Part shown: piece after piece, positions 17,319 through 28,354 of the stretch
Layout of the letters: every line of letters begins with the position of its first letter
How positions within the stretch are numbered: the first letter of the stretch is position 1
NCBI GenBank assembly: GCA_022562455.1
Contig: JADFPG010000001.1
Coordinates: 1 to 64,000, forward strand
Source: Fidelibacterota bacterium
GTDB taxonomy: Bacteria; Fidelibacterota; Marinisomatia; Marinisomatales; SCKK01
Direction of reading: 5' to 3'
Length of the DNA stretch: 64,000 nucleotides
Notes under the pieces: model-generated
What the model was told of the DNA's origin: nothing
What the model saw: the letters and a program-made list of their open reading frames with translations, nothing else
Databases searched by the model: none
Program-made: the position numbers and the translations under genes

Positions 17319-18734
17319 CTATTTTAAATATACCATCTTCCTCGAATCTACAAATACTTCATACTCACCCACAATGGCTTTGAGGGAGAAGAAATAGATA
17401 CCGCTACTGTAATTCTCTCCTTTCCAATTAAAACTATAATGCCCTGGAGATAAATTTTCCTCGTTAATTAATACGCCTACTTCATGACCCGTTGCATCAA
17501 CTACAATCAGTGTTATCAGACCCTCTTCCAACAAATCGAAGCGGATCGTCGTCTCGTTATTAAATGGATTGGGATAATTCTGATAGAGGGCAAAGACTTC
17601 CGGAACTTCAGGTGTATCATCCAAAACAAGAATCGAATCCTGATTCTCATAAGAAAAAATTTGGGGTTCTAATTCCTCTAACCAGGTTTGAAGAATAAAA
17701 TGTAAATCAGTCTCTAATTTACCTCCATCATTGATATTTATAGATTCGGTATGAATTTGTGGATTCAGGATTAAATATGTTCTTTCAATATAATCGGCAA
17801 CTTGTGGGGTTAGTCCTTCTTCCAAAATATTAGTCAAGTTTTCTTTGAGAATTCTGGTTGTAGAAAAAGATAAGTCTTCCCAATACAAAGTACCTACTTC
17901 CCCTTTATAATGAAGTTCTTCGAAGTATTGATCGTATCCGTAAAAACCCAAGTCATCAACTAACCTTGATAAGAGAGCTTCTGTTCCTGAATCTGGTAAA
18001 ACCTGGGTCTGTACTGAAAATAGCCCTAGATGGCGTCGGTCTAACTGAATCCATTGGATAGATTCATTCTCCAAAACAAAAGGAGATGAATAGATTAAGG
18101 GATGGATAAAAATATAATGGAAAAGGTCATGAAGGTTTTGGACAGGTTTAAGGAATAATTCACTGCTATCACTTTTCAGGATAATATCCGACTGTATACT
18201 ATCATTTAAAAAAATTTCTCCTTGAAAGATCTGAGTATCAATTTGGGTGGAAATAAGTACAAGTCCGTTTTGTTCTGTAGATAGGTCGAGGGGAAACTCG
18301 CTATCCGGTTTCATGGTTAAATTTAAAATGGATAAATTATCCGGTAAAGGCAATGGAGATGCCAGAGGAGGCGTTTTTTCTGATGTGGCAAATGTATTTC
18401 CAAACGGATCTTCCCATATTAACCGGTAAAAATAAACATTGTCTACTTCAACATCCCAATCTCTCCATAATGAAATATCATCCTCGACTTGAGCGATCAT
18501 TTCAAACTCACCCTTTAAGTCTTCACTTCTTTTAATGGATATTTTCCCAGGTCCAATTTGATGCTCAATGCTCCAACGTAGTAAAATTGATTGATAATGA
18601 TCTATTGCAATAAATAAATCAAATCCAGGAAGGACAACACTTTCCTCTCCTGATAGAGATAAACTATCTATTTGGCCTTCCAATCTCATGAGCAATAGTA
18701 GGAAGACACACTGTGTCAGTAATGTCTTTTTCAT
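17319..18734 (-). CDS. Secreted protein with T9SS type A sorting domain
   Basis: 471 residues from ATG 18734 (an in-frame TTG lies 4 codons earlier). A signal peptide MKKTLLTQCVFLLLLMRLEG is followed by a fibronectin-III-like stretch (about 45-115) and a long unrecognised middle. The end carries YQNYPNPFNNETTIRFDL and SSGIYFFSLK, the type A C-terminal sorting domain used by the type IX secretion system to export and anchor cargo. Function of the middle unknown. Confidence 0.82.
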   Translation of the reverse strand: MKKTLLTQCVFLLLLMRLEGQIDSLSLSGEESVVLPGFDLFIAIDHYQSILLRWSIEHQIGPGKISIKRSEDLKGEFEMIAQVEDDISLWRDWDVEVDNVYFYRLIWEDPFGNTFATSEKTPPLASPLPLPDNLSILNLTMKPDSEFPLDLSTEQNGLVLISTQIDTQIFQGEIFLNDSIQSDIILKSDSSELFLKPVQNLHDLFHYIFIHPLIYSSPFVLENESIQWIQLDRRHLGLFSVQTQVLPDSGTEALLSRLVDDLGFYGYDQYFEELHYKGEVGTLYWEDLSFSTTRILKENLTNILEEGLTPQVADYIERTYLILNPQIHTESININDGGKLETDLHFILQTWLEELEPQIFSYENQDSILVLDDTPEVPEVFALYQNYPNPFNNETTIRFDLLEEGLITLIVVDATGHEVGVLINEENLSPGHYSFNWKGENYSSGIYFFSLKAIVGEYEVFVDSRKMVYLK

Positions 18735-19319
18735 TGGGTAATTCAAAATTTGAGGTAATTCTCTGAGTTAATCAAGTGGTTTCCATCATTTGAAGTATTT
18801 ACCTTTGAGCCACTAATCCCGAAGGTTCGGGATAAGGAACATCGGCATGCTCCTGTGGACAAAGATTGAAGAAATATAGGAAATTACTCTTGCACAAATC
18901 TATTACCTTTTAGGACAAGTAATTCTTCTTGAAATCTTACTACAGAACTCCTTACATAGGCACAAAAATTAATGCAACGAAATGACATGTTTTATGTCAT
19001 CCGTCGGCTGACGGATTTATTATATACAACTATATTAATCTATAAAGTTACAAGTTTTAATATCAATAGCCCAGCCCTTTCCCGACCCCGACTTGTCGGG
19101 GGGAGGGTTTGAATGCACCAAAATTCCAGCAGGGCATTCATGCCCTTATCATTTGGAGTATCATATATTTAAAACGACGTGCCTGCCTGTCGGCAGACAG
19201 GAACGGCGTCAGGACATTTTTTTTATCTTTTACCCCGCCATGAATGACGGGGCTACGAAGAAAGAAGTCCCGACATTATAGACAGACTCTAAATAGTCGT
19301 ACATCAGCAATTAAACTTT
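18735..19319. repeat. Long repeat-rich gap
   Basis: No gene seen in about 585 bp. Palindromes found: TCCCGAAGGTTCGGGA (18817-18832), ATCCGTCGGCTGACGGAT (18999-19016), CCCCGACTTGTCGGGG (19086-19101), GCCTGCCTGTCGGCAGACAGG (about 19181-19201), and CCCGCCATGAATGACGGGG (about 19233-19252). They belong to five distinct arm types set side by side. Confidence 0.7.
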
Positions 19320-26421: not shown

Positions 26422-27486
26422 TTATACCTCTGAAAAAAAGAGATGAGAAAGGCGCTGAATTTTATCTTCCCATGAGTTTGGATAAAGAAAATACTCCGAA
26501 GCAGCAATGGAACTTAACAGTGAATTACCGTCCTGAGGCGTAAAACAAAACCCAATTATATCCCGATTATGGATAGCAAGAGTCGGGACAGAAACTACCG
26601 TCTGATTTAATATCCTTCCGTAATGCCCATGATCCCTGCCGAAGGAAAAAACCGTGCTTGCACTCGTTTTTTCCGTTAATGCGATGAGTGGATTGTTTTC
26701 CAATTTATCCAATACATTTTGTAGAGTTATTTGGTATTTCAGACGGATATTAAACCATATGATGTGCATATATTGTGAATTGACTTTCATTGCAGATGAA
26801 AAAAGGTTCGGAGTATAATTAATCGTTTGAAACAACTGAACTGCATCGCGAGCATGATGTGTTCCATATCCTTTCAATCCATGCCTTCCCACATCCGGAG
26901 ATGACACAAATGCACTGGTTTGACTAATATCTGACGCACGCCGGATACAGACAAACTTTCCTTCTTCTAAGACATCTTCACCGTCGATCATACCAAGCGT
27001 TTTGGTTAACGAGGCAATATTATGTGTATTGCATGAAACAATCTGCACAAAATTATTGGTATTTCTTTTTAATGCAATATCGTTAATCCCTCTTGCATAC
27101 TTAAGTCCAAAACCATGTTCACTTCCTTGGGCAAGAAACCCTCTTACTGTCTTTGAAAATTTTTCATAATACTTATGCTTATTCTGATGACCAATTCCTT
27201 TTGGAGTACAGTCTATCACAACCGCTGCTCTTGCAATTGCTTCTTCTGCTTCAAACTCGGGATTTATGCCTATTTTTTCAAATCCTTCCCAAGCTTCTTT
27301 ATAAACTGTTAATCTTGCGCCTCGAGCAATCATATCTCTAACCTTTGCTCTTTCATAAGTTAAAGGCGAGTTTTTATGAAAGGTAACCTCGTCAATCCCC
27401 AATGGTGTGCTGTAGTCGCTCAAAAGCCCAATTAAAGGTTCACCTATAGTACCTGTCCCAATAACATGGACAATTTTTCTTCCCAT
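26422..27486 (-). CDS. Type II (archaeal-type) GAPDH-like protein
   Basis: 354 residues resembling archaeal type II glyceraldehyde-3-phosphate dehydrogenase along the whole length: Rossmann start GTGTIGEPL, VVIDCTPKGIGHQNK (archaeal form VVDTTPNGVG), IVSCNTHNIASL around the catalytic Cys (archaeal VSCNTTALLRT), CIRRASDISQ and THHARDAVQLFQTINY (archaeal HHAKDVNSVI). The ordinary bacterial GAPDH signature (ASCTTN) is absent. It would act in the cytosol on a phosphorylated aldehyde with NAD(P); the true substrate is unproven. It begins 3 bp after the ccmD-like ORF, so it is read with the ccm genes. Confidence 0.75.
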   Translation of the reverse strand: MGRKIVHVIGTGTIGEPLIGLLSDYSTPLGIDEVTFHKNSPLTYERAKVRDMIARGARLTVYKEAWEGFEKIGINPEFEAEEAIARAAVVIDCTPKGIGHQNKHKYYEKFSKTVRGFLAQGSEHGFGLKYARGINDIALKRNTNNFVQIVSCNTHNIASLTKTLGMIDGEDVLEEGKFVCIRRASDISQTSAFVSSPDVGRHGLKGYGTHHARDAVQLFQTINYTPNLFSSAMKVNSQYMHIIWFNIRLKYQITLQNVLDKLENNPLIALTEKTSASTVFSFGRDHGHYGRILNQTVVSVPTLAIHNRDIIGFCFTPQDGNSLLSSIAASEYFLYPNSWEDKIQRLSHLFFSEV

Positions 27487-27489
27487 AAA

Positions 27490-27645
27490 TTACTTATCCC
27501 AATTATTGTTAGTAGATTTTTTTAAATATGTCAACTTATCCAATATCGATTTTTCCTTTTTGAACATTACGATTACCCAGCCACTTATGGAAAACATAAT
27601 GATTATTAATACACTTATGAAATATCCAAAATATTTATATTCCAT
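27490..27645 (-). CDS. CcmD-like small membrane protein
   Basis: A 51-residue ORF starting inside the end of ccmC (11-bp overlap) and ending 3 bp before the GAPDH-like gene. It has one membrane span (about residues 7-28) followed by a basic, charged tail: FKKEKSILDKL. That size, topology and position just after ccmC match CcmD, which helps release haem-loaded CcmE from CcmABC. Sequence conservation in CcmD is low, so the call rests on context. Confidence 0.6.
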   Translation of the reverse strand: MEYKYFGYFISVLIIIMFSISGWVIVMFKKEKSILDKLTYLKKSTNNNWDK

Positions 27646-28354
27646 GTTCTAACTCCGTCAGTTTTGTATCCAGTTCAAGCACATGCATACGGTAGCGTAT
27701 CATATAGCTTAGTAGTATTGTGAAAGTAAGTAGCATAAACAGGAACGTTCCTAATACATCCGTTGGTTGTCCTCCCATGTCCGATTGTGGATGAACTTGA
27801 TCCCTTTCAGCCCACAAATTGATTGAAAAATATATAAACGGAACGTCGATAAAAGCAATTATCCCAATAATGGCAGAAAGTCTGGCAATTTGTTTTCTAT
27901 CTCCTCCGTATTGCCGTAGCATAAAATATCCGATATAAATTAAGAAAAGGATTAGTGTGGTTGTCAATCGTGGCTCCCAACTCCAAGGCGTCCCCCATAT
28001 TGGTGTTGCCCAGATGGGACCCGTGATAAGCACCAACACACAGAATAAAGTCCCTACTTCAGCCGATGCTAATCCAAACCTATCCCATTTTTCAGCTCGA
28101 GTTCGTAAATATTGAATACCTGCAATCAGCACAAGAAAATAAGCCAAAAACATACTCCATGCAGAAGGAACATGAAAATAAAAAATCTTCTGTGCCATTT
28201 GTTGTTCGGCATCGACTCTTGTAACTACCAAAACAAGATAAAGCCCAAAAGCAAACATGACAATAATTAAGCCAAATAGCAATTTATTGACAGGTATACT
28301 TATCTGAAGATTAAATATATTTAATTTTATACTTTTTGAATGAAATTTCCCCAT
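27635..28354 (-). CDS. ccmC: Haem exporter / cytochrome c biogenesis protein CcmC
   Basis: 239 residues, six membrane spans. The tryptophan-rich haem-handling loop is WGTPWSWEPRLT (about 117-128), flanked by FYFHVPSAW with its conserved His and by WAERDQVHPQ with the second His. CcmC loads haem onto CcmE in the periplasm. Start follows ccmB directly. Confidence 0.93.
   Translation of the reverse strand: MGKFHSKSIKLNIFNLQISIPVNKLLFGLIIVMFAFGLYLVLVVTRVDAEQQMAQKIFYFHVPSAWSMFLAYFLVLIAGIQYLRTRAEKWDRFGLASAEVGTLFCVLVLITGPIWATPIWGTPWSWEPRLTTTLILFLIYIGYFMLRQYGGDRKQIARLSAIIGIIAFIDVPFIYFSINLWAERDQVHPQSDMGGQPTDVLGTFLFMLLTFTILLSYMIRYRMHVLELDTKLTELEHGI

Follow-up and report, generated by a model that had tools for sequence, protein, structure and literature searches.

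The gene under study lies on the minus strand at positions 26422..27486 of the window, meaning the whole 64,000-nucleotide stretch of a Fidelibacterota (SAR406) genome that was analysed. It is an open frame with an ATG start that encodes a divergent type II GAPDH-like dehydrogenase of 354 amino acids, and we coined the name GAPX for the family of this protein. Conservation of the frame at ~60% identity in 185 of the 245 genomes of its own phylum is far above chance expectation, and the ORF is therefore real. Upstream on the same strand are ccmC (27635..28354, minus), recognized by a Cytochrom_C_asm match, and, between ccmC and GAPX, a 51-codon ORF whose translation has a single transmembrane segment (27490..27645, minus) and which is ccmD-like by its position. 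The latter ends 3 bp ahead of the GAPX ATG, as the preliminary description had claimed. Downstream, gene order places metF (MTHFR, PF02219; 25451..26398, minus) and then tilS (PF01171 and PF11734; 24037..25434, minus), which opens the tilS-hpt-ftsH block found after GAPX in most relatives. A methylmalonyl-CoA mutase gene (PF01642; 33026..34702, minus) is, from gene order, often the upstream neighbour in relatives.

The same description had placed the gene at the end of the ccm operon, which holds in the window genome but fails as a general rule, since many relatives have no ccm genes at the locus. In these relatives GAPX still has the mutase or GCS2-family genes on one side and tilS on the other. 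The upstream order is strongly conserved in SAR406, running (pdxS-pdxT-dxs), methylmalonyl-CoA mutase, (ccm genes or a GCS2-family gene) and GAPX, while the downstream order is GAPX, (a metallo-beta-lactamase-fold gene), (metF), tilS, hpt, ftsH, folP and cdaA. The constant neighbours are thus the mutase or ccm genes on one side and tilS-hpt-ftsH on the other. A functional tie to cytochrome c maturation was rejected because ccm genes are missing beside GAPX in many relatives; the ccm association is local and incidental.

Within Acidobacteriota the gene sits between an HPr kinase/RapZ/HPr/enzyme I cluster and a fab cluster, the gene names being those obtained by reading the sequences. At the loci viewed there (L183-L194) GAPX is usually divergent from the HPr kinase cluster, a neighbourhood hinting at regulation by carbon status. 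The GAPX copy of genome G064 (L013 / G064:C14:143960-145021) contains three in-frame TGA codons in a gene that is otherwise conserved (66% identity); these may represent frame damage, an assembly error or recoding. Elsewhere in the window, positions 17319-18746 (minus) encode a 475-aa protein with a weak match to the Por-secretion C-terminal tail; the match falls slightly short of the Pfam threshold and hints at type IX-like secretion.

Relationship of GAPX to type II GAPDH

Three sequence blocks had been named in the preliminary description as collinear with archaeal type II GAPDH, and the bacterial ASCTTN signature had been reported missing. VIDCTPKGIG (residues 90-99), VSCNTHN (150-156) and THHARD (209-214) are indeed present and ASCTTN is absent. 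The blocks are collinear with those of the type II enzymes of Sulfolobus, Methanothermus, Pyrococcus and Methanocaldococcus (phmmer E 1e-12 to 3e-10), and these four structures were the only source of meaningful phmmer E-values. A Pfam search gave no match (best value 0.13, noise), and the window protein specifically matches none of PF02800, PF02774/PF01118 or PF00171. The NCBIfam type II GAPDH model, on the other hand, matches at E 6e-27 with about half of its curated cut-off. Both curated type II cut-offs are missed, with 94.5 of 185 bits for NF003251 and 74.5 of 232.9 bits for TIGR01546, although the E-values are highly significant.

A profile built from 24 relatives lifts the PDB match to 1e-20. 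The AlphaFold2 model (pLDDT 87, pTM 0.88) has archaeal type II GAPDH as all six of its best PDB matches, at TM 0.72-0.77, with type I GAPDH/E4PDH ranking behind. Profile-profile comparison with hhalign gave a probability of 99.4% for type II, 13% for type I and 2.5% for one aspartate-semialdehyde dehydrogenase (Asd) sequence. With the NCBIfam profile, the best PDB folds and the profile-profile comparison all in agreement, the proposed kinship was right; no family other than type II GAPDH resembles GAPX convincingly in profile and fold.

The maximum-likelihood tree, which is unrooted and includes one archaeal sequence, places GAPX as sister to the type II clade (100/99 support) on a long branch. 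In this tree GAPX thus lies outside type II. GAPX proteins share 56–100% identity within Fidelibacterota and 51–60% with those of Acidobacteriota, and about 20-25% with type II GAPDH. On these sequence comparisons GAPX is best classed as a distinct subfamily in the type II superfamily, outside the curated type II equivalog. Recent transfer of an ordinary type II GAPDH was rejected from the tree and from two Acidobacteriota genomes (G282 and G308), in each of which GAPX coexists with a true type II GAPDH. Searching the open-access literature, we found no bacterial GAPX-like family.

All features of the putative active site lie on the minus strand. The Rossmann dinucleotide-binding motif GTGTIG (residues 10-15; 27442..27459) is invariant in alignment A1 and aligns with GYGxIG of type II enzymes. 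Following strand beta-2 (residues 33-37 in the model) is Lys38, within TFHK (27373..27375), found in 137 of 137 GAPX sequences. An invariant lysine here, with no acidic residue at the end of beta-2, suggests a preference for NADP(H), which is probably the cofactor. The putative catalytic residue Cys152 of VSCNTH (27031..27033) aligns with Methanothermus Cys140, and the putative base His241 (26764..26766), also invariant, aligns with Methanothermus His219; we take Cys140 and His219 to be the catalytic residues of that enzyme, with His219 as the base. That the catalytic cysteine is kept, as had been proposed from the window protein, holds for all sequences compared, 137 distinct ones of GAPX and 11 of type II. 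Across the same set Asn153, Asp186, Asp214 and His241 are invariant, as are Arg182 and Arg183 (26938..26943), a putative substrate- or phosphate-binding pair. Of the His210-His211 pair in THHARD (26854..26859), the first is invariant in GAPX and type II, and GAPX shares the second with some archaeal type II sequences. Invariants specific to GAPX are Lys38, three residues inserted after CNT, the FSFGRD block and a block of the FTPQDGN type.

Coexistence with type I GAPDH and the pathway gap in streamlined genomes

Our survey covered two phyla, and GAPX was found in 185/245 Fidelibacterota and about 57/247 Acidobacteriota genomes; the latter count led us to reject GAPX as a SAR406-only gene. Most carriers own a canonical GapA. 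This includes the window genome, where an ordinary type I gapA, a matter raised in the preliminary description, does exist elsewhere, in tandem with a type I paralogue whose catalytic Cys is replaced by Ser. This tandem partner is at L001:2433-3452 (contig C36 of the same genome), and orthologues were seen at L181, L223-L228, L236 and L240. The altered copy is conserved across SAR406, with Ser or Ala in place of Cys wherever the motif is readable (SSTTQ, SATTN and similar), while the altered copies of Acidobacteriota mostly retain Cys (SCTAN/SCTAH), SGTAH also being seen. A Cys-replaced type I paralogue is possibly a non-catalytic subunit or a regulator.

Among 94 high-quality genomes of the phylum, 62 carry GAPX and type I GAPDH, 13 only GAPX, 18 only type I and one neither, so that type I is present in 18 of the 19 that lack GAPX. 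In Acidobacteriota, complementarity between GapA and GAPX was rejected, as type I was present in all 57 GAPX-carrying genomes searched. Counting full-length matches, 46 of these 57 have at least two type I genes, often as a tandem of a canonical and an altered copy, and the GAPX-lacking Acidobacteriota searched (n=23) have at most one. We treat this association of GAPX with a type I pair as a lead only, because lineage confounds it and some GAPX-carrying SAR406 have a single type I gene. Bona fide type II GAPDH genes were also noticed on four public bacterial plasmids (L153, L154, L155 and L156); two of them have copper or heavy-metal P-type ATPases nearby, and three have glgP or fructose-bisphosphate aldolase nearby. 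The plasmid genes may supply a spare, metal-tolerant glycolysis.

The 13 genomes without type I GAPDH, out of 75 high-quality GAPX-carrying SAR406 genomes, are mostly streamlined and 0.8-1 Mb in size. Their weak PF02800 matches (16.7-23.2 bits) are at the scores that GAPX itself receives. PGK and TPI are kept in all 13, usually adjacent. GAPN or GAPOR as a substitute was rejected: an AFOR/GAPOR gene was found in 0/36 genomes tested (the GAPX-only genomes, the window genome and its sister), and the two ALDHs read from one GAPX-only genome, a P5C dehydrogenase and an MdlD-like ALDH, are not GAPN. One GAPX-only genome of 1.02 Mb in two contigs (G058) was read end to end. There GAPX was the sole match (E 2e-19) of a type II profile from which GAPX sequences had been left out, a type I GAPDH profile matched nothing, and the gluconeogenic set of pck, eno, pgk, tpi and a glpX-type FBPase is present. 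PFK (PF00365) was absent from all 14 streamlined genomes tested. Because PGK without a GAPDH would be stranded, 1,3-bisphosphoglycerate is most likely both formed and consumed by GAPX, which in GAPX-only genomes most likely works mainly toward gluconeogenesis. In characterised prokaryotes, a reversible NADP-GAPDH found beside another GAP-oxidising enzyme serves mainly gluconeogenesis (PMC4518329), and GAPX would be so placed in the window genome.

Proposed function and alternative readings

We consider it likely that GAPX is a phosphorylating GAPDH on a deep new bacterial branch of the type II family, gluconeogenic and NADPH-linked, serving as sole GAPDH or as a second isozyme. We infer its substrate, cofactor, direction and single-residue roles from homology, fold, conservation, phyletic pattern and the pathway gap. 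Cys152 would form a thioester with the triose by way of a hemithioacetal, hydride transfer to NAD(P) and phosphorolysis. His241 would act as the base, and the phosphates would be held by Arg182/Arg183 and His210. The predominant direction would be toward G3P, with NADPH reducing 1,3-bisphosphoglycerate in gluconeogenesis. In the window organism GAPX would be a second isozyme next to an NAD-type GapA, and in streamlined SAR406 lacking GapA the only GAPDH. Weighing against this reading are the missed type II cut-offs, the 20-25% identity, the GAPX-specific features and the GapA already present in most carriers.

These same points, namely the large divergence, the motif insertions and the retention of GAPX beside canonical GapA, favour an enzyme whose substrate is a different phosphorylated or acyl-phosphate aldehyde, such as erythrose-4-phosphate or a lineage-specific sugar phosphate, with the streamlined genomes relying on an unrecognised GAPDH. 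The insertion after CNT together with the FSFGRD block could indeed mean a different substrate, and the preliminary description had leaned this way from the altered residues around the cysteine. That argument loses force since no type II catalytic position has changed in GAPX: the Cys and its His partner, both Arg, the Asp and the leading His of HH are all retained. It also sits poorly with the GAPX-only genomes examined, which keep pgk and tpi and in which no second GAPDH, GAPOR or GAPN was seen. The PdxST pathway makes PLP without oxidation of erythrose-4-phosphate, and pdxS/pdxT lie near the GAPX locus in many relatives, so that such an oxidation would be unneeded for PLP there. A genuine GAPDH is more likely than a substrate shift, and we regard this alternative as a whole as unlikely.

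The main rival reading, though in our judgement quite unlikely, is that GAPX is a non-orthologous replacement of a missing Asd, using the same Cys chemistry to reduce and dephosphorylate aspartyl phosphate. Nearly all GAPX-carrying SAR406 tested, the window genome and its sister among them, lack PF02774 (Asd/ArgC), with only fragments in two, and a true Asd is found in both GAPX-lacking genomes of family f23 that were tested. However, GAPX has no profile similarity to Asd, and in G058 lysC, dapA, dapB, argB and argC went undetected by tblastn and phmmer with E. coli queries, while pgk and tpi are present. Such queries can miss non-orthologous replacements, fbaA and gpmM having likewise been missed, and the lysC/dap search covers G058; as far as it goes, the result leaves no pathway for an Asd in that genome. 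Together with the profile result it weakens the replacement. One cultured member of the phylum is unable to make DAP or lysine (PMC11652737), which offers a simpler reason for the loss of Asd. Synthesis of DAP and lysine has probably been lost in the GAPX-carrying SAR406 tested, and where lysC and the dap genes persist GAPX could in principle fill this second gap. As side observations, PF02774 was sought in G000, G070 and the GAPX-only set, G058 retains murC, murE and murF, and the Asd of one GAPX-lacking f23 genome (L307, G003) exceeds the threshold of TIGR00978 asd_EA, a model of the archaeal/eukaryal type. A non-catalytic or moonlighting relative with a regulatory role seems very improbable. 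Type I paralogues with a replaced catalytic Cys in the same genomes indicate that inactive GAPDH homologues do occur in the lineage, yet Cys152 and His241 are found in 137 of 137 GAPX sequences, and the gene is kept in genomes of 0.8-1 Mb.

Building on the GAPDH reading, we tentatively suggest, while thinking it somewhat doubtful, that an NADPH-dependent, gluconeogenic GAPX replaces GapA in streamlined SAR406 and elsewhere forms a split two-way system with the tandem type I pair. If true, carbon-metabolism surveys that rely on Pfam would fail to see a split two-way GAPDH system, its type I pair consisting of a canonical copy and one whose Cys is altered or missing. The GAPDH step is among the most conserved in central metabolism, and the window protein passes no Pfam model and no NCBIfam cut-off. 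If confirmed, GAPX would represent a deep GAPDH branch, not described before, that many uncultured marine SAR406/Fidelibacterota and some Acidobacteriota carry, and would close an apparent hole in the gluconeogenesis of streamlined SAR406. It would also offer a clear case on which to trace the early course of the archaeal/bacterial GAPDH split and to test NADPH- against NADH-linked triose metabolism.

Comparison with known GAPDH families

The closest known enzymes are the archaeal type II GAPDHs (Sulfolobus 1b7g, Methanothermus 1cf2, Pyrococcus 2czc and Methanocaldococcus 2yyy; NF003251, TIGR01546), whose fold GAPX shares at TM 0.72-0.77. Common to both are the Rossmann and GAPDH catalytic folds, Cys-Asn, the RR pair, the Asp, the His, the base His and a DCTPxGxG block. 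GAPX differs from them in the CNTHN insertion, TFHKN after beta-2, the invariant FSFGRDHG and FTPQDGN blocks, an identity of about 20-25%, scores below both NCBIfam cut-offs and a clade of its own (100/99). The plasmid type II GAPDHs (Pontibacter WP_025603927, Corynebacterium WP_042622826) are bacterial as well and share the superfamily and the catalytic residues with GAPX. Unlike GAPX, they score above the cut-off for type II (Pontibacter, 453.7 bits) and cluster with the archaeal type II enzymes. In the examples seen they are accessory and linked to metal resistance; GAPX, by contrast, lies on the chromosome in a conserved gene order. Type I GAPDH (GapA/GapB/Epd) has in common with GAPX the superfamily fold and the presumed reaction, but GAPX lacks ASCTTN, the window protein has no PF02800 match, and the hhalign probability is 13%. 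Aspartate-semialdehyde dehydrogenase has a related Cys dehydrogenase fold, but the window protein has no PF02774 match, and no profile similarity between the two could be detected (probability 2.5%).
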